Shown here: positions 5,781-14,535 of the stretch, piece after piece
How the letters are laid out: the number at the start of each line of letters is the position of its first letter
Position numbering within the stretch: position 1 is the stretch's first letter
NCBI GenBank assembly: GCA_002786715.1
Contig: PCTW01000044.1
Location: 1-64,000, forward strand
Direction of reading: 5' to 3'
DNA length: 64,000 bases
Origin: Bdellovibrio sp. CG22_combo_CG10-13_8_21_14_all_39_27
Lineage (GTDB): Bacteria; Bdellovibrionota; Bacteriovoracia; Bacteriovoracales; Bacteriovoracaceae
Notes under the pieces: model-generated
The model's input: only the letters and a program-made list of their open reading frames with translations
Databases searched by the model: none
Told to the model about the DNA's origin: nothing
Made by a program: the position numbers and the translations under genes

Positions 5781-6905
5781 ATGGATTGGAACATAATTCG
5801 CCAACAATTTCCGATAACTCAAAATCAAACCTACTTAATGAACGCAGCCGTCTCTGGAATGCACGAAAGAACACTCAAAGTGGCCAATGAGATGTTAATG
5901 AAAATAGCGATGAAAGGAGCTATTGCAGACGAAGACTACTTCAATCTGATCGTGAGTAGCAAGGATATAGCAGCTCAATTTGTCAATGCAGGGCCAGCAG
6001 AAGTGGTTTTCACCAGTAACACTTCTCATAATATGAACCTTCTTGCGATGATGTTAAAGGATTCTGGTTCTAAAAGAAAAATATTAGTTCCAGATGATGA
6101 ATTTCCATCGTCCGTTATCCCATGGCATCATCATGGCTTTGAAGTCATAAAAATCCAAAGTCAGAAACATGTCTATTCAGCTTATCAATTTGAAGAACAT
6201 ATTACCGACGATGTAGCCGCAATTGTTATCAGTGGTATCCAATATGGAACTGGTTTTAAAATGCCTATTAAAGAAATCGTCTATATCGCAAACAAATACT
6301 CAGTCCCTGTGATTTTGAATGCAACTCAACAGCTTGGCCAATCATCGGTTGATCTCAAAGAGTTAGGAGTTGCAGCCATGTCTTGCTCTTGCCATAAATG
6401 GTTGGGAGCTGGGATAGGAATGGCCCTCCTTTATGTAAACGAAAATTTTAGTAAGGATAAAAAATGGCCATTTGCAGGATGGGTCAGTGTCGAAGAACCA
6501 TGGACATTAAGTATTGATAAACCTCAAGTAAGAAGAGATGCGGGTGTTTTAGGCACAGGCTCAGCTCCCTTTATTAATATGGCGGCTATTCAAGAAGCAA
6601 TGAAAGTACAAATGGAAATTGGAAAAGACCGAATAGAACAACGAATTTGCGAGCTAAGCCAAAAACTCTATCAAGAGTTAACGACACTAAATTATAAAGT
6701 ATTCACTCCACGTGAAAGTAAGACTTTTTATAGTGGCATTATCAGCTTTGCCCACCCTGAAAAAGAAGCTATTGAAATAGCATCGCTTTTAAAAGAGCAA
6801 AAAGTCTTTATTAATCACCGAAAAGGACGAATGCGAGCTTCAATACATTTTTATAACAACGAAGATGATATTCAAGCTTTGATTTCAGGATTGCGTAGTC
6901 TGTAA
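5781..6905 (+). CDS. Class V aminotransferase-fold PLP enzyme
   Basis: Pyridoxal-phosphate enzyme of fold type I, class V (the family of cysteine desulfurases, serine-pyruvate aminotransferases and isopenicillin-N epimerase-like proteins). The Schiff-base lysine is K206 in SCSCHKWLGAG, and the upstream TSNTSHNMN and NATQQLGQ stretches fit the cofactor phosphate and ring-binding regions. I chose the ATG at 5781 because GAGGAG lies five bases upstream; an earlier in-frame ATG at 5745 has no such site. Substrate is not predictable, and no Fe-S scaffold genes are nearby. The last 34 bases overlap the convergent response-regulator gene. Confidence 0.82.
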   Translation: MDWNIIRQQFPITQNQTYLMNAAVSGMHERTLKVANEMLMKIAMKGAIADEDYFNLIVSSKDIAAQFVNAGPAEVVFTSNTSHNMNLLAMMLKDSGSKRKILVPDDEFPSSVIPWHHHGFEVIKIQSQKHVYSAYQFEEHITDDVAAIVISGIQYGTGFKMPIKEIVYIANKYSVPVILNATQQLGQSSVDLKELGVAAMSCSCHKWLGAGIGMALLYVNENFSKDKKWPFAGWVSVEEPWTLSIDKPQVRRDAGVLGTGSAPFINMAAIQEAMKVQMEIGKDRIEQRICELSQKLYQELTTLNYKVFTPRESKTFYSGIISFAHPEKEAIEIASLLKEQKVFINHRKGRMRASIHFYNNEDDIQALISGLRSL

Positions 6906-7561
6906 CCGACGCCTCTTACTGTTTCAATCAAATCATCATATAGTTTTTGCCTAATTTGAAGCACATGAGTATCGACGGTTCTGGTCGTAGGAAAATTTTC
7001 GTAACCCCAAACTTTATTCAAAATTTCTTCTCGTGAAAAAGCTCTGTCAGGGTGCTCGGCCAACAATGTTAAAAAATCAAATTCCATTTTGGTAAATTCA
7101 ATGATTTCACCTTTGAAAGAAATTTCTCTCTTCATTTTATCTATGATGATTTCTCCCACTTTCACAGTTGAATGAGAATCTTTGTCACTTTCATCAGTAT
7201 GGTTGATTATTCTTTCTTGAACTCTAAGTCGAGCAACGAGTTCCCGAGGTTCAAAAGGCTTGGTTAAATAATCACTGGCTCCAGACTCTAATCCTAGAAC
7301 TTTATCGATAAGCTCAGTTCTCGCTGTCAGCATAATGATAGGTTTTGCTTGAAGCTCCTTTCGAACTTCGCGTACGAGGTCTATGCCCTGACCATCTGGT
7401 AACATCCAATCAAGAATCATTATATCAAAATCTTGATAATTTTTTGCTCGTGCTCCTTGAAGATTATCAACCCATTCAACATGATACCCCTGATCTCCAA
7501 GATATCTTTTTAAACTATGACCAAGATTTTTATCATCTTCGACCAGTAATAGGCGTGTCAT
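6872..7561 (-). CDS. OmpR/PhoB-family response regulator
   Basis: DNA-binding response regulator partnered with the histidine kinase encoded immediately upstream. Residues 1-120 form the receiver: acidic pair in LLVEDD, phosphoacceptor D51 in MILDWMLPDG, Thr in MLTART and the conserved Lys in YLTKPF. Residues 130-229 form a winged-helix effector ending in TVDTHVLQIRQKL...VRGVGYRL, characteristic of OmpR/PhoB. Its ATG overlaps the kinase stop (ATGA), so expression is coupled. Regulated genes are not identifiable here. Confidence 0.93.
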   Translation of the reverse strand: MTRLLLVEDDKNLGHSLKRYLGDQGYHVEWVDNLQGARAKNYQDFDIMILDWMLPDGQGIDLVREVRKELQAKPIIMLTARTELIDKVLGLESGASDYLTKPFEPRELVARLRVQERIINHTDESDKDSHSTVKVGEIIIDKMKREISFKGEIIEFTKMEFDFLTLLAEHPDRAFSREEILNKVWGYENFPTTRTVDTHVLQIRQKLYDDLIETVRGVGYRLRNPEIKA

Positions 7562-9150
7562 ATAGCTCCTTTTATTTCGGGAATTTCTAAAATAAAGACA
7601 GTATTAGGCTTGGCCTGAAAATTTAATTTTCCGCCCATTTCTTCTATAATTGATCTCACAATATTGAGCCCAAGTCCTGATCCAGAACTGGCCGTTCCTT
7701 TAACAAACTCTTTCGTCATATCTCCAAGTTCTTCAAAAGTACATTCACCATGATCTAACACTTTTACTAGCAGCTTAGAGTTTTCATGAAACAATTCAAT
7801 TTCAACAGGAGGCTTGCCATGGGAAAGAGCATTCTCGACTAGGTTTTTGACGACTATTGAAATCCAGTAAACATCTCCTCGCCAAGATGTATCCTGCGCC
7901 AGAGGGTTAAATTTAACCATATTTGGATAAAGATCAACATAAGGAGAAATCAGCTCTTCTATGAATTCATTAACTGATGCTATCTCTGCGGAAGAGAATT
8001 GAATGACTCCTCCTCTTTGTTCAGCCTTTAAATAATGTTTCGACATCTCAACAAGTCGTTGTAGTCGGTAAACTTCGCTCGACATTCGAAGAAAAGCTTC
8101 TTGTGAATCTTCGTCAAGCTCACTCATTTTTTTATTTAATCTTTCGATTAAAAGAAGCATAGAGGCAACTGGAGTTCTAAATTCATGAGTTAACACTCTT
8201 AAAGCAAATCGTCTTCGCTCATCTTCATGTTTCTGCTGTTTTAATTTCTCTATCAATAAGTGTACAACGATAGTAACGATGAGAATGAGTCCAAAAAAGA
8301 GAATAATCGTTGATGAGTTGGCCAACTTAAAAACATGTTTGACATTGTAATCCCAACAAATGCTTCCATCGCGATAAAAACAAGAATCTCCTTTTCGAAA
8401 ATTGGTTAAAACAAATGGAGAATCCTTTAAAAATTGATCAAGCTGGGATCGAAGATAAACTCGGTATTCGAGCACATCGTCCTTCCCAAAATAATTTAGT
8501 CTCGCTAATAAATAGTCATTCGTAAGAATCGTCCCATCTCCTTTACTGAGATGGGAAAGTTCCATTTCATTTAATTTTTCTAGAATAGAGAAGATTCCTC
8601 TTAATTCACCTACTTCTTTTTTAACTTTTCGAAGTTCCGTAGAGTGAAAAAAGGGCAAATGGTTCATTACCCATTGCTTGTCTTGGTACTCACCTTTTGT
8701 ACTTAGAAAAGCCAACATGGCGTAACTCATCCCAGTGGGGTGAATAAAAGGTGGTGATGTAAAAAATCCGAGAGGAAGACTATTTCTTCTATTGCATCGA
8801 AATTCTTCCCATATCCAAACTTTTTCAAAGTTTCTAAAGTTAAGAAGCTTACCAAATTGTTGAAAACAATTTTGATTGGTAAAATACGAAATTTTAGCAT
8901 CACGAACACCTGGCTCAGGTAATGCGTAAAAGGGGTTCAATAATTGAACTTGACCTGAGCTTGAATAAAGCGAATTGAAATTAACAATTCCTTCTGGCTC
9001 TACATTTTTCTGAAACTCAGTTTTTAATTGGGAGATGGTGACAATATCTTGCTCTGTTGCCTGATAAGGACCTCGTAAAAAAAGCGCAACATAACCAGTG
9101 GCAAAGGCCATTGAAATTGCAGCTAAAATAAGGAGGATATACGCTCGCAT
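7558..9150 (-). CDS. Sensor histidine kinase with large periplasmic domain
   Basis: Membrane sensor of the two-component system. Using the ATG at 9150 (a TTG at 9174 is an alternative; neither has a clear ribosome site), residues 3-22 are a membrane anchor, about 250 residues are periplasmic with several Cys, and a second helix lies near 280-300. HisKA carries H322 in LTHEFRTPV, then a HATPase domain with the N-box NLVENALSHG and G-boxes in SGSGLGLNIV. The periplasmic domain is unlike the PAS or Cache sequences I know, so the ligand is unknown. It is cotranscribed with the response regulator. Confidence 0.9.
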   Translation of the reverse strand: MRAYILLILAAISMAFATGYVALFLRGPYQATEQDIVTISQLKTEFQKNVEPEGIVNFNSLYSSSGQVQLLNPFYALPEPGVRDAKISYFTNQNCFQQFGKLLNFRNFEKVWIWEEFRCNRRNSLPLGFFTSPPFIHPTGMSYAMLAFLSTKGEYQDKQWVMNHLPFFHSTELRKVKKEVGELRGIFSILEKLNEMELSHLSKGDGTILTNDYLLARLNYFGKDDVLEYRVYLRSQLDQFLKDSPFVLTNFRKGDSCFYRDGSICWDYNVKHVFKLANSSTIILFFGLILIVTIVVHLLIEKLKQQKHEDERRRFALRVLTHEFRTPVASMLLLIERLNKKMSELDEDSQEAFLRMSSEVYRLQRLVEMSKHYLKAEQRGGVIQFSSAEIASVNEFIEELISPYVDLYPNMVKFNPLAQDTSWRGDVYWISIVVKNLVENALSHGKPPVEIELFHENSKLLVKVLDHGECTFEELGDMTKEFVKGTASSGSGLGLNIVRSIIEEMGGKLNFQAKPNTVFILEIPEIKGAI

Positions 9151-9266
9151 AAGAAGATGATCATAGCACTTCAAAAAGCGATCGTGTCAAGAATCAGTAA
9201 ACTCGTGGTCATTTCATAGTTTTTCATTTAAAAAGTTCTCTACTAATCCCAAAAAAGGACCAACTA

Positions 9267-10055
9267 ATGGGGCATAACCCACTAATTCTAGGTATTGATA
9301 TCGAAGGTGTAGGACTGGACCTCACTATTACTGGTGCACCTAATCATGAAATTGATCGCGTCATGGAAATTGGCGCTGTCCTTTGGGACTGGGAAGACAA
9401 ACAGCCAGTGAGGATTCTTTCCGAAATTATCGATGAAGCTGATCGAATTGAGGTCTCTCCCGAGCTCGTTGAGTTGACTGGTTTATCAGATCGTCTTCTT
9501 GAAAAATGGGGAAAGAAAGGCACTGAAATAAAAAATGTCCTTGAGCAACTCTCCGCTCTAGTAGAACAAGCAGACTATCTCATGGGACATAATGGGAATC
9601 ATTACGACAAACCCATGCTCGAAGAAATGTACAAAAGATACAACCTCAAATTTCCGGACAAAGTCTGGATAGATACAATGATTGACGTTGAGTATCCTGC
9701 AAAACTCCCCCACAAGTCTCTGGCCATGCTTGAGTATTCTCATGGTTTCATTAATCCCTTTCCTCACAGAGCGGTGACAGACGTATTGGCGATGTTAAAA
9801 ATTGCATCTCACTACTCCCTTGAAAGAATGGTCTCTCTCGCGAAATCACCAATGGTTCGTATTGTGGCCATCCTTAAGGCGCCGAACTGGTCTGACCGAC
9901 AACAGGTCGATACCTTTAATAAGATCAAACACAAAGTCTCTAGATCAAAGTTCAAATGGAATCCCGACAATAAAACTTGGTATAAAGACGTTCATAAAAT
10001 TCTTCTCGATGAAGAAAAATTTAATTTTGATTTTGAATGGACCGTCGAAAAATAG
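9267..10055 (+). CDS. DnaQ-like 3'-5' exonuclease with C-terminal extension
   Basis: DEDDh-family exonuclease. The three exo motifs are present: D11-x-E13 in GIDIEG, the ExoII region MGHNGNHYDKP with its Asp, and H167...D172 in HRAVTDVL. The nuclease domain ends near residue 190. The remaining 70 residues contain FKWNPDNKTWYKDV, a small Phe/Trp-rich module of the kind appended to some nucleic-acid enzymes. An AAGGA ribosome site precedes the ATG. It may act in DNA repair, RNA turnover or dNTP handling; the length (262 aa) does not allow a choice. It lies 97 bp upstream of the putative motor genes in the same direction. Confidence 0.82.
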   Translation: MGHNPLILGIDIEGVGLDLTITGAPNHEIDRVMEIGAVLWDWEDKQPVRILSEIIDEADRIEVSPELVELTGLSDRLLEKWGKKGTEIKNVLEQLSALVEQADYLMGHNGNHYDKPMLEEMYKRYNLKFPDKVWIDTMIDVEYPAKLPHKSLAMLEYSHGFINPFPHRAVTDVLAMLKIASHYSLERMVSLAKSPMVRIVAILKAPNWSDRQQVDTFNKIKHKVSRSKFKWNPDNKTWYKDVHKILLDEEKFNFDFEWTVEK

Positions 10056-10152: not shown

Positions 10153-13128
10153 ATGAATGACAACGATAATGATAAACCAAAAGAAGATGGTAGTGTCTGG
10201 ACTTCTTATTCCGACATGTTCACAACCATGGCCATTATTTTCTTGGTAATGTTCGTCTTTGCACTCCTTAGATCTGGAGTGAGTAAAATGGAACAAGCTC
10301 AATCCAAAAAAGAAAATAAAGAAATGCTTGAAGGCAAGATCCCTGAAGCCGTTGTCAAAAAAAATGAAGAGAGAAAAGATCAATTGAATGATTCTATCAA
10401 AGAGATGGAACAATTTAATAACATGATTTCGCAAAAGATGCTGGAATTAAATAAGTTCTCTGAAAAGATGAAAACCCATTCAACCGTCATGAAAGATCTC
10501 ATCAAAGACCAAGAAATTAAAGAAGCTCAAGTTGAGAATTTAAAAACAGAGTTTGAAAAGAAAGACAAAGAAGTTCATCTCACGAAAGCTCAAATGAATG
10601 AATTGAAAAAAGAATTACAAGTCAGAGTCAATGATCTTGAGCAATCAATTTCCATGAACGAAGAACTTCGAAAAAAAGAATCAAAGTTAGAGAAAACAAT
10701 AAATGATTGGCAAACTCAACTTGAAAATGTCAAAAAAGAGAATCAATTCAGCATCAAAGTAAAAGACCAAGAAATTCAAAAATTGGTTGAAGTTGTTCAA
10801 AGAAAGGAATTAGAAAAGGAAGACCTCCAAAAAAATGTTCAATTGGTTAAAGATTTAACGAAACAAAAAGAGAAAGAGATTGTCGATATTAAGGAAGTGG
10901 TTAAAAATTTAGAATCACAAATTATAGAAAGAAAAGAAAAACTTGCTCTTATGCAAGATCAACTTCAAAAGTCAGATCAACTTACGATAACTCAAAATCA
11001 AAAGTTAAAAGATATTCAAGAGAAATTACAAGCCTCGACTCAAGTGAATAAAGAAACGAGCAATCTTGCAGAATCCCTAAAGCAAAAGCTTACCGTTTCA
11101 GAATCAAAAATTAATGAAATGACTAAAAGAGTTGAAAATCAGTTGCAACTAGAGGCAAATCTAAAACAAAAGATTGCCGCCGTGGAGCAAGAGTTGACAC
11201 AAAACAAAGAGAAGAACTCCGAGCTAACTGCTGAATCACAAGAACTACAAAATGAGATTATTAATTTGAGCGCCCAAATTGAACAAAAAACAAAAGATGA
11301 GTCAGAGCTCAACAAAAATTTCCAATCTGCACAAACAGAAAATAAAAATCTTGCGACTCAAATCAATACTATGCAAACAAATGTGAATGCACTCCAAAGC
11401 CAAATCGATACGCGAGATCAAAAAATTCAACAAATGAAGAACACTGTTGCTGAAATGGAGAAGAAAGTAGCTGGAGAATCCACGACCAATCAGCATCTTA
11501 AGCATAAAATTGATAATCTTAATGATGTTATTAACACTCTTCAGGCTGACTTGGGCACAAATAGAAAATCACAAGATCAATTGCAACAGAAACTTTCTCA
11601 GCTTCAAGGCGACTACAATCAAAAGCAACAAGAAGCTGGACAGCTCAATAAGCAGATAGAAGGTCTGAATCAAAAGATAGATGGCCTAAACAATAAAATT
11701 GCCGAGCAAAATGGAAATGAGCAAGATCTCAAGTCTAAAATTGCCCAATTAGAATCACAAAACAAATCAGGCTTGGGTTCAAACAGAGAGCTCCAGCAAA
11801 AAGTCGATAGCTTAAAAGGACAACTCGCTGGCATGCAGGCTGATCTCAAAGGAGAACAAGGCAAAGTATCGGAACTTCAAAATAGCCTCGCTCAATCGAA
11901 CTCAAATTTTAAAAATGCCACTGATCTCAACAAAAAACTTGAAGGTCAAGTGAGTAATCTCAATCAAAAGCTTGAGTCAATGAATGGGACAGTTGCCAGT
12001 CTTAATGGACAGATTGAAGGTCACAAGAATAAGGAAAAGGGACTGCAAGAGCAAATGGCCAGCCTTGGCAAAGAGCTTGGAGAAGCGAACTCCGCCAATC
12101 AAAAAGCGAATGAAAAGATGCAGGGTTTAGCAAGCGAAGTAGGACAACTCAATCAAAAGATATCAGGACTAACCGGACAACTTCAAAATGAAAAGAAAGG
12201 ACGCGATGAGCTTGGCGAGAAATTTAAACAAGCTGTTTCACAATATGAAAATGCCCTTAATAAAAATAGAGATTTGAAAAATGAAATGGCCAATCTTAAT
12301 GATCGTTTGAGAGGAATGTATGCTCAGCTCGCAGATTTGAAAAAACCTCAAACAAAAGATAATCCTAATCTAACCGCTGAAAATCAAAAGCTCAAAAAAG
12401 AGCTTGAAGATGCAATAAAAGAAAAAGAGTTTCAAAAGCAAGCTCTGCAAATCATGCAAAATGAAAATGCTAAGATCAAAGGCGATGCCAATAAAGTTCA
12501 ACGCAAAATTGCCAGTGTTCAGAACTCCTTTCGCCAAAACCTTGCAAAGAAAATTGCGGATCGTCTAAGAAAATCTCATCTCAATGTTTTTGTAGATCCT
12601 CATACTGGAAATCTCATTCTAAGAATGGATGATTCAGTCCTCTTTGAACACAATAGTTCACGCCTAACAAAATCGGCGAAAGACACCTTGAAGAAAGTGA
12701 TCCCTCTTTATATCGAAGAACTTTTCAATGACAATGCGATTTCAGATAAAATCAATCACATCAACATTACTGGTCACGCCTCCCCACAATTTCGTCAAAA
12801 GTTCGTGGATCCTCTTGATAAAAACCAATACGCTTATAATTACAATTTGGATTTATCTAGTGAAAGAGCGATGGCCATTGTTAAGTTTATCTTCACAAAA
12901 GAGTTTGGAGAATTTAAACACAACATGATGTTTAGACAAAAAGTACAAGCAATTGGAAAAAGTTATTCAGAACCAGTTGAGCGCTCCCCCGCTTCTAAAA
13001 AGACCAAGGGAGAGGATTGCGGCCCTTACGATTGTCGACTATCAAGACGTGTTGAATTTAGTTTTACTTTAAAAGATACAAAAGAAGCTTGGGATAAAAT
13101 GAATCAATTACAAGGGGACTCCCTATGA
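10153..13128 (+). CDS. MotB/OmpA-like protein with giant coiled coil
   Basis: Predicted stator-type subunit of an ion-driven envelope machine. Residues 14-40 (SYSDMFTTMAIIFLVMF) match the single transmembrane helix of MotB/ZorB, including the ion-binding Asp (D21). Residues about 45-795 are almost uninterrupted heptad-type Lys/Glu/Gln/Leu coiled coil with Gly-containing spots around 510-700. Residues about 795-985 form an OmpA-like peptidoglycan-binding domain (LFEHNSSRLTKSAKDTL, then ITGHASP and LSSERAMAIVKFI). MotB itself is about 300 aa, so the insertion is exceptional. The stop overlaps the start of a MotA/TolQ-like gene (TGATG), strongly implying one complex. Cargo or function is unknown. 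Confidence 0.85.
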   Translation: MNDNDNDKPKEDGSVWTSYSDMFTTMAIIFLVMFVFALLRSGVSKMEQAQSKKENKEMLEGKIPEAVVKKNEERKDQLNDSIKEMEQFNNMISQKMLELNKFSEKMKTHSTVMKDLIKDQEIKEAQVENLKTEFEKKDKEVHLTKAQMNELKKELQVRVNDLEQSISMNEELRKKESKLEKTINDWQTQLENVKKENQFSIKVKDQEIQKLVEVVQRKELEKEDLQKNVQLVKDLTKQKEKEIVDIKEVVKNLESQIIERKEKLALMQDQLQKSDQLTITQNQKLKDIQEKLQASTQVNKETSNLAESLKQKLTVSESKINEMTKRVENQLQLEANLKQKIAAVEQELTQNKEKNSELTAESQELQNEIINLSAQIEQKTKDESELNKNFQSAQTENKNLATQINTMQTNVNALQSQIDTRDQKIQQMKNTVAEMEKKVAGESTTNQHLKHKIDNLNDVINTLQADLGTNRKSQDQLQQKLSQLQGDYNQKQQEAGQLNKQIEGLNQKIDGLNNKIAEQNGNEQDLKSKIAQLESQNKSGLGSNRELQQKVDSLKGQLAGMQADLKGEQGKVSELQNSLAQSNSNFKNATDLNKKLEGQVSNLNQKLESMNGTVASLNGQIEGHKNKEKGLQEQMASLGKELGEANSANQKANEKMQGLASEVGQLNQKISGLTGQLQNEKKGRDELGEKFKQAVSQYENALNKNRDLKNEMANLNDRLRGMYAQLADLKKPQTKDNPNLTAENQKLKKELEDAIKEKEFQKQALQIMQNENAKIKGDANKVQRKIASVQNSFRQNLAKKIADRLRKSHLNVFVDPHTGNLILRMDDSVLFEHNSSRLTKSAKDTLKKVIPLYIEELFNDNAISDKINHINITGHASPQFRQKFVDPLDKNQYAYNYNLDLSSERAMAIVKFIFTKEFGEFKHNMMFRQKVQAIGKSYSEPVERSPASKKTKGEDCGPYDCRLSRRVEFSFTLKDTKEAWDKMNQLQGDSL

Positions 13129-14030
13129 TGCTAATACTAAATTTTTGTTCTCATTACTTAATAGAAGTGATGAGTGTCTTTTTCCTTATAGCCATTGGCT
13201 TTAGATGGGCTTCGTATAAATCTAGTCGTGTCGAAGAAATCTTTTTTACCACTTTTACCAGTGAAGTTGAAAAGGTTCTCTTGATGCAAAAAGAAAAAGG
13301 TGAACAAGTACAAGATGTCGAAAAGTACATCCATAACCTACTCGACCAGGTTAAGGATAAACTTCCAACACGCACAGTGAGGCACAAAACAAGAAAACGC
13401 AACAAGGAAAGAGCCCGTACGCTCGGTGCACAAAGTGTTGTTTCATTAAAAGATTATGTGACAGGAGATCAAAGTCTCTTTTTAGGTATCAAGTCTGAAG
13501 TTGGTTCATTTAAATCGAAATACCCCCCAAACTTCAACGAACTCACTGATCGTATTCTAGAACACGACGAGAAGTGGAATAAGCTTTTAAACATTTTCCC
13601 AATCGGTCCCATCTCTCGCTTAATTGATATTATGCCTGGCATTTTTGTGGTTCTCGGAATTTTTGGAACCTTTATTGGTATCGCGATGGCCCTACCTGAA
13701 ATTGCCAATATGGATTTTAGTAACTTGGAATCTTCTGGTTCTATTCTGACCAGATTTGTGAACAATGTTACCTTTTCCATGAACACGTCAATTGCTGGGA
13801 TTATATTCTCCCTGCTTATGACTTTCTTAAACACGATTGCCCCAGTAAGTGGACTCCGTCATAAAATCTATAAGAAAGTTGGAAACTCATTTGAAAATAT
13901 TTGGCATTCCATTCATGGAGAAGCAACACTTGAGCAAGAGCTCAAAAGTACTCTGCCTAGGCTTCTTCAAGAAGTTAAGATGTTAAGAGAAAAATTTGTG
14001 ACATCCGAAGATAAAAAAGAGTCAGCTTAA
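13125..14030 (+). CDS. MotA/TolQ/ExbB-like proton channel protein
   Basis: Predicted channel partner of the preceding MotB/OmpA-like protein. Three membrane helices are visible: residues 8-27, about 165-192 (MPGIFVVLGIFGTFIGIAMAL with the family GTxxG motif) and about 215-242 (NTSIAGIIFSLLMTFL). The large basic cytoplasmic loop between helices 1 and 2 (residues 30-160) gives a TolQ/ZorA-like, not MotA-like, topology. The short helical tail ends at residue 301, without the long tail of ZorA. Start is one of two adjacent ATGs at 13125/13128 within the upstream stop, so translation is coupled. A cNMP-binding gene follows 15 bp later. Confidence 0.85.
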   Translation: MMLILNFCSHYLIEVMSVFFLIAIGFRWASYKSSRVEEIFFTTFTSEVEKVLLMQKEKGEQVQDVEKYIHNLLDQVKDKLPTRTVRHKTRKRNKERARTLGAQSVVSLKDYVTGDQSLFLGIKSEVGSFKSKYPPNFNELTDRILEHDEKWNKLLNIFPIGPISRLIDIMPGIFVVLGIFGTFIGIAMALPEIANMDFSNLESSGSILTRFVNNVTFSMNTSIAGIIFSLLMTFLNTIAPVSGLRHKIYKKVGNSFENIWHSIHGEATLEQELKSTLPRLLQEVKMLREKFVTSEDKKESA

Positions 14031-14045
14031 GCGAAAGGAGCAAAC

Positions 14046-14516
14046 ATGTCCGTTGCCCAATTGGTAAAAGGATGTCCTCTTTTTCATGAAATCTACGATG
14101 AAGAAATAGAGGAGATTATCAAAGATTGTTTTGTCGCAAGCTTTAAGCCCGGCGATCTCATTATTAAACAAGGTGATACCAGCAGCGATATTTGTGTCAT
14201 ATTGACAGGAGAAGCCGAGGTTGTCGTTCACAAAGGAACTTCAAAGTTTTCAATTGTAAAGCTGGGTCGCGGAGATCTCTTTGGAGAATTGGTTCTGATT
14301 AATGAAACTCAAAGAACAGCAGACATTGTGGCGATAGAAGAAACTGATATCCTAGTGATGACCTATGAGAATTTCTTTTCTCACTTTAGTACTAAACCTC
14401 AAGTTTTTGCTTTAATGATTCTAAATGTAACGAGATTGATTACAAAACGTCTAAAAGCATCTAATTTGAAAATCGAAGAATTAGCACAGCAATTAAACCA
14501 AGAAAAAGCAGCCTGA
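14046..14516 (+). CDS. Stand-alone cyclic-nucleotide-binding domain protein
   Basis: A 156-residue protein made of one cNMP-binding (Crp-type) beta-roll and a C-terminal helix. The phosphate-binding cassette is intact: FGELVLINETQRTAD, with G80-E81 and R90-T91 as expected ligands of the cyclic nucleotide. No DNA-binding helix-turn-helix follows, so it should act by protein contact. AAAGGAG precedes the ATG, and the gene lies 15 bp after the MotA/TolQ-like gene, so it probably regulates that machine. Ligand could be cAMP or cGMP. The 3' end overlaps a terminator read from the opposite strand. Confidence 0.85.
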   Translation: MSVAQLVKGCPLFHEIYDEEIEEIIKDCFVASFKPGDLIIKQGDTSSDICVILTGEAEVVVHKGTSKFSIVKLGRGDLFGELVLINETQRTADIVAIEETDILVMTYENFFSHFSTKPQVFALMILNVTRLITKRLKASNLKIEELAQQLNQEKAA

Positions 14517-14535
14517 AGTCGAAACTTCAGACTGC
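14503..14535 (-). terminator. Intrinsic terminator of the subtilisin gene
   Basis: Read on the minus strand, the stem GCAGTCTGAAGT pairs with ACTTCAGGCTGC across a TTCG tetraloop with one G-T wobble, followed directly by TTTTT. It follows the stop of the S8 protease gene at 14549. The right arm and T tail lie inside the last codons of the convergent cNMP-binding gene, so the two genes share this DNA. Confidence 0.8.

Follow-up and report, generated by a model that had tools for sequence, protein, structure and literature searches.

The closest described relatives of the motor pair analyzed here are ZorA and ZorB (PDB 8qyd, 8vvn, and 8vvi), for which the Asp, the ring of serine/threonine residues, and the binding of peptidoglycan are reported to matter functionally (PMC11890865). 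In Zorya types I and II, ZorA carries a long cytoplasmic tail and ZorB is short (246–277 aa in the solved chains). This branch is known only from phage defense as far as the open-licence literature showed. In GldLM/PorLM of Bacteroidota, the B-type subunit (GldM) has a long periplasmic part made of folded domains and has no OmpA-like anchor. MotAB and PomAB have an Asp helix and a peptidoglycan anchor, and YcgR acts on the flagellar motor as a brake protein. The Agl-Glt machinery of Myxococcus combines AglRQS, in which AglR matches Pfam MotA_ExbB and AglQ and AglS are of the ExbD/TolR type, with GltG, described as a cytoplasmic FHA domain followed by a transmembrane helix and a periplasmic domain (PMC3169522).

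The window, that is, the whole 64,000-nucleotide stretch of DNA analyzed, contains three adjacent genes, B, A, and C (Table 1), as the first-pass annotation had described. Their products probably form a membrane motor that is driven by ions and akin to the anti-phage ZorAB motor. Judging from profiles and Foldseek searches with predicted models, the A/B pair belongs to the ZorAB branch, not to MotAB or TolQR. Both subunits are homologous to ZorA and ZorB by profile and fold, and the ion-binding Asp, the Thr/Ser ring, and the OmpA-like peptidoglycan-binding domain are found in both pairs. The length asymmetry, however, is reversed: A is tail-less with 301 aa, whereas B proteins of the same class (class I, see below) have 603–1758 aa. 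The matched PADLOC models span 420–1063 positions for ZorA and 232–240 for ZorB, as against 301 and 991 residues for A and B. A cyclic-nucleotide-binding or FHA protein is linked instead of ZorC, ZorD, and ZorE. With a tail-less A, no ZorC/D/E seen, and no defense neighbors found, the trio falls outside the Zorya definition.

The other systems resemble the trio in part. The Agl-Glt combination of a stator-type motor with an FHA/transmembrane/periplasmic-domain protein recalls the plan of class II, but A of the window has no PF01618 match, B is of the ZorB type with a peptidoglycan-binding domain, and class I has no FHA protein. Like GldM, B of the window has a long periplasmic part, which, unlike that of GldM, is formed by a coiled coil with an OmpA-like domain at its end. 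The Asp helix, the peptidoglycan anchor, and a soluble nucleotide-binding candidate regulator are shared with MotAB/PomAB and their YcgR-type brakes; the pair is nevertheless nearer to ZorA/ZorB in sequence and fold, B has a giant coiled coil, and C carries a cassette for cyclic mononucleotides in place of a PilZ domain for c-di-GMP.

Table 1. Positions of the operon features in the window.
Feature	Position	Strand	Description
B ORF	10153–13128	+	991 aa; ZorB/MotB-type stator protein with giant coiled coil
B transmembrane helix, residues 21–39	10213–10269	+	only hydrophobic helix of B
B coiled coil, residues about 45–790	10285–12522	+	predicted, hydrophobic period 3.50; periplasmic side suggested by ZorB homology
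B ZorB/OmpA-like peptidoglycan-binding domain	12517–13125	+	assigned by profile, predicted model, and invariant residues
B/A stop/start overlap, ATGATG	13125–13130	+	TGA stop of B overlaps start of A; couples B and A
A ORF	13125–14030	+	301 aa; ZorA-like three-helix channel protein without cytoplasmic tail
A ring residues T182 (13668–13670) and S222 (13788–13790)	13668–13790	+	invariant in 38/38
Small-residue A end, Ser-Ala	14022–14027	+	small-small end shared by 53/55 A proteins across the two classes
C ORF	14046–14516	+	156 aa; soluble protein, predicted to bind cyclic nucleotides
Stem-loop at operon end	14508–14535	not assigned	12-pair terminator-like match with T-run on − strand

Features of the A and B subunits

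The channel protein had been called TolQ/ZorA-like, of which the ZorA part is retained and the TolQ part is not; its coupling to B by overlap also holds. A matches ZorA with E-values of 7.9e-10 (PADLOC) and 2.5e-9 (NCBIfam), and shows no match to Pfam MotA_ExbB (PF01618) above the cut-off; the ten PF01618 matches in its own genome do not include A. A profile of 38 A sequences gives significant matches in the PDB for ZorA only, with five chains at 8e-8 or better (best 4.4e-9). The predicted model (pLDDT 81, pTM 0.65) shows three long helices, with two further helices at the C-terminus. ZorA is also its best match by Foldseek, with a modest E-value (1.4e-3), TM-scores of 0.43–0.47, and ExbB and TolQ close behind. 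The chain ends about 60 residues past the last transmembrane helix, and the long cytoplasmic tail is absent. Pro171, Thr182, Ser222, and Gly225 are invariant in all 38 sequences, which cover both classes; when aligned with ZorA, Thr182 falls on the Thr of its GTF motif, and Ser222 on the Ser in its last transmembrane helix. If the second ATG of the overlap is taken as the start, A has 300 residues.

The MotB-type helix and the OmpA-like C-terminus proposed for B are both supported. The putative ion-binding Asp21 (codon 10213–10215, within WTSYSDMFTTMAIIFLVMF) shows no variation among the B proteins compared (25/25, from the two classes), and the same holds for Ser20, Phe23, Gly874, Ser877, Pro887, Asn898, Leu901, Ser902, Arg905, Cys956, and Cys961. 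Of these, Gly874, Ser877, Asn898, Leu901, Ser902, and Arg905 belong to the putative peptidoglycan-binding domain. The C-terminus matches ZorB at 1.6e-36 (PADLOC), and ZorB chains rank first when a profile of this region is compared with the PDB. The predicted fold of the last 203 residues (pLDDT 83, pTM 0.80) likewise finds ZorB first by Foldseek (2.4e-11 for 8vvi, and 4.0e-11), followed by YfiB, PomB, MotB, and OmpA. The Cys-x4-Cys pair Cys956/Cys961 (13018–13035) lies in the periplasmic domain and possibly forms a disulfide beside the peptidoglycan site.

The giant coiled coil of the first-pass annotation is also borne out. In residues 45–790 (about 745 residues), hydrophobicity recurs at a period of exactly 3.50 and a power of 12.9, while the maximum in shuffled sequences is 1.74, and proline is almost absent, so that a canonical heptad pattern over about 700 residues is predicted. 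With a rise of 0.1485 nm per residue, the coiled coil would be about 100–110 nm long as a single extended rod. The longest B (1758 aa; G012, L060:7251–12524) would exceed 200 nm as one extended rod. G020 has two class I copies, and in the second (L058:4408–6243) B is divided into two ORFs of 412 and 162 aa, possibly by a frameshift or sequencing error.

Predicted cyclic-nucleotide-binding protein C and the ends of A and C

The cNMP-binding protein that had been pointed out after A is confirmed as a linked gene. Its start lies 15 nt past the A stop and is preceded by AAAGGAG. C matches Pfam cNMP_binding (PF00027) with an E-value of 5.4e-18, and its phosphate-binding cassette GE-x8-R retains Glu and Arg in 24/24 sequences; C is thus predicted to bind a cyclic nucleotide. 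The R-T-A motif does not decide between cAMP and cGMP. Within the relatives set, class III cyclases are found in all class I genomes (two in that of the window), and in most non-carriers too. C has neither a membrane segment nor an output domain, and hence its simplest mode of action would be cytoplasmic binding to A or B.

The C-terminal residues of A and C should be noted. C of the window ends with KAA, of which the two small residues are encoded at 14508–14513. The strong stem at the operon end is itself symmetric. Two small residues at the end are found in 53/55 A and 18/23 C proteins (KAS, KAA, KGA, and the like, after a variable charged linker), against a background of 36/1106 ORFs (3.3%) in 1.2 Mb of the genome of the window; the sequences are related, and binomial probabilities for such ends overstate their independence. 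The tmRNA tag of the same genome has a similar end, AMAA. A role of the small-small end as a proteolysis signal is plausible. Proteins with such ends in this genome include MotA_ExbB-family proteins, two CheA-like proteins, one CheY-like protein, and HD-GYP-type proteins. Ribosomal L25 and others end in the same way, and a degron restricted to motility and signaling proteins was rejected.

Two classes in Bdellovibrionota

The trio belongs to a family that is widespread in Bdellovibrionota, a phylum that includes the predatory Bdellovibrio. Homologues of A are found in 35/97 relatives and in 182/369 genomes of Bdellovibrionota, the phylum covered in depth; a single scan of named genomes with one query sequence gave only one named relative. 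A tree of 56 A sequences is divided by a branch with 100/100 support into two classes, and these two clades match the two kinds of third gene.

Class I, to which the window belongs, is patchy and occurs in about 41 genomes by our own count (38 in the family of the window and three in two other families), with two copies in some of them. The first-pass annotation had made its proposal depend on conserved co-occurrence of the genes, and C adjoins A in all of the best 30 class I loci, on the same strand in 29. The sole inverted C gene seen is in G009 (L053:5781–6272). Flanking genes vary widely, and the trio is kept across many unrelated neighborhoods; its recurrence across tens of genomes is beyond chance. 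A response regulator, a histidine kinase, and an exonuclease upstream in the window (6872–10055) are syntenic in the closest relatives (L039–L044) and absent around most other class I loci.

Class II is found phylum-wide and is common in one family (f6), where nearly all carriers have one copy. At most loci, its third gene encodes a protein of 539 to 1369 aa, usually with an FHA domain, a long helical region, a transmembrane helix, and a conserved periplasmic domain in this order. Some of these proteins keep the C-terminal part without a recognizable FHA domain, and a few loci are without the gene. The transmembrane/periplasmic domain linked to FHA is absent from all 11 class-I-only genomes searched. 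It occurs in G019 (C39:16946–17455), where no A homologue was detected, and has an in-frame TAG in G015 (C47:3163–3690). A class II trio is present at 1,107,724–1,112,616 in a genome that is apparently that of B. bacteriovorus HD100. For HD100, the candidate locus tags Bd1173–1178 pointed only to an L,D-transpeptidase. Mutual exclusion of the classes was considered and rejected: among 59 genomes of the family, our own count of 22 with class I, 12 with class II, and 4 with both equals the chance expectation.

We found no account of the B-A-C unit in the open-licence literature, to which our search was limited. The earlier view of an undescribed system stands to this extent, with the addition that the family extends phylum-wide to a sister class linked to FHA proteins.

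Proposed mechanism and alternative functions

Sequence features of the general 5:2 motor class are present: B has a short N-terminus, one transmembrane helix, and the Asp, and A has the Thr/Ser ring on its pore helices. A 5:2 assembly is predicted from homology. We consider it rather likely that the three genes specify a 5:2 rotary motor of the ZorAB type, powered by ions, with a long-tether B anchored to the wall and C as a cyclic-nucleotide clutch. Five A subunits would form a ring in the inner membrane around two B helices, and ions moving between Asp21 of B and Thr182/Ser222 of A would make A rotate against B. Dimeric B would run into the periplasm as the coiled coil and end at the peptidoglycan-binding domain. 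C would serve as a soluble clutch: with a cyclic mononucleotide as its ligand, it would engage the motor from the cytoplasmic side, much like YcgR at the flagellar motor. The third place in the sister class is taken by the FHA/coiled-coil/transmembrane protein. Rotation, ion flow, and regulation by C are what we infer, and the safest statement is that of an ion-driven ring-and-axle motor with the axle anchored to the wall.

A length of about 100 nm is several times any radial gap between the inner membrane and peptidoglycan, and B would thus have to run lengthwise through the periplasm or be folded inside it. It would be a tether or lever of great length, fixing on or sensing the wall at a distance. 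The range of B lengths suggests that no fixed mechanical length is under selection, and, together with the rod of about 100 nm, makes a fixed-length strut unlikely. B would be better explained as a lateral tether, a lever, or a wall sensor of long reach. The sister class has an FHA protein where class I has C, and this gene order suggests that the third gene position is a control or coupling point of the motor, where the sister-class motor is perhaps controlled by phosphothreonine.

A function in gliding or prey entry had been suggested for the system. As an Agl-Glt- or GldLM-like force generator, the motor would move a trans-envelope element, with the class II FHA protein as a GltG-like adaptor. 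The third gene of class II indeed has the plan of GltG (FHA domain, transmembrane helix, and periplasmic domain), the family is distributed phylum-wide, and the identity of the Bdellovibrio gliding motor is an open challenge according to a 2026 review (PMC13104615). However, the intact peptidoglycan-binding domain of B would be expected of an anchor that stays in place, not of a shaft that moves, the adaptor is absent from class I, and HD100 already has an AglQ homologue, bd1480 (PMC9140294). Class I loci have no conserved neighbor family, so gliding partners are probably not linked. The markers do not discriminate either: nearly every genome of the family of the window has FliG, carriers and non-carriers alike, and MglA-like GTPases (PF00025, a loose marker that catches other GTPases) occur in most genomes regardless of the trio. 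We regard this function as unlikely.

Defense, which had also been raised, appears quite improbable as the function of the trio. A divergent system of the Zorya kind would sense wall damage at phage entry through B, and an effector would be triggered by the motor, the signal being relayed by the partner (cyclic-nucleotide or FHA). ZorA and ZorB are the nearest relatives of A and B, and class I is patchy, sometimes with two copies per genome, in varied neighborhoods, all of which agree with such a role. On the other hand, neither the gene maps nor PADLOC searches of 100 flanking genes (E 1e-10) show ZorC, ZorD, or ZorE near the trio; among the best 25 of 35 matched families, none is a Zor family and none occurs in more than one gene. 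A defense island was rejected, as no family listed recurs among these genes. The conserved unit contains no nuclease or helicase. Plasmid and phage records give no match to A, and mobile carriage was likewise rejected. The wide occurrence of class II in f6, mostly as one copy per genome, would suit a standing function better.

An accessory flagellar stator with C as its cyclic-nucleotide brake is very improbable: the MotB-like helix and peptidoglycan-binding domain of B, the FliG of the carriers, and the known brakes on flagellar motors would suit it, but the profile of A fits ZorA and not MotA, MotA_ExbB is unmatched, trio-less relatives also have FliG, and the genome has ten other MotA_ExbB matches.

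Returning to the wall-anchored rotary motor, a broader reading can be offered only tentatively: the family may be an undescribed rotary motor clade that belongs to the standard equipment of much of Bdellovibrionota, with the long coiled coil (tens of nm to more than 200 nm extended) on the wall-anchored subunit and not on the rotor. Controlled by a cyclic nucleotide or by phosphothreonine, it might drive or sense the mechanics of the envelope during predation or movement on surfaces, and could even be the Bdellovibrio gliding motor. The trio would represent a widespread relative of ZorAB without defense effectors, in which the long rod has moved from the rotor to the anchored subunit, and would offer a direct case for how a cyclic-nucleotide or phosphothreonine reader gates a stator. 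As the sister class is apparently present in the genetically tractable B. bacteriovorus HD100, its function may be testable there, where the gliding motor is a stated open problem (PMC13104615).
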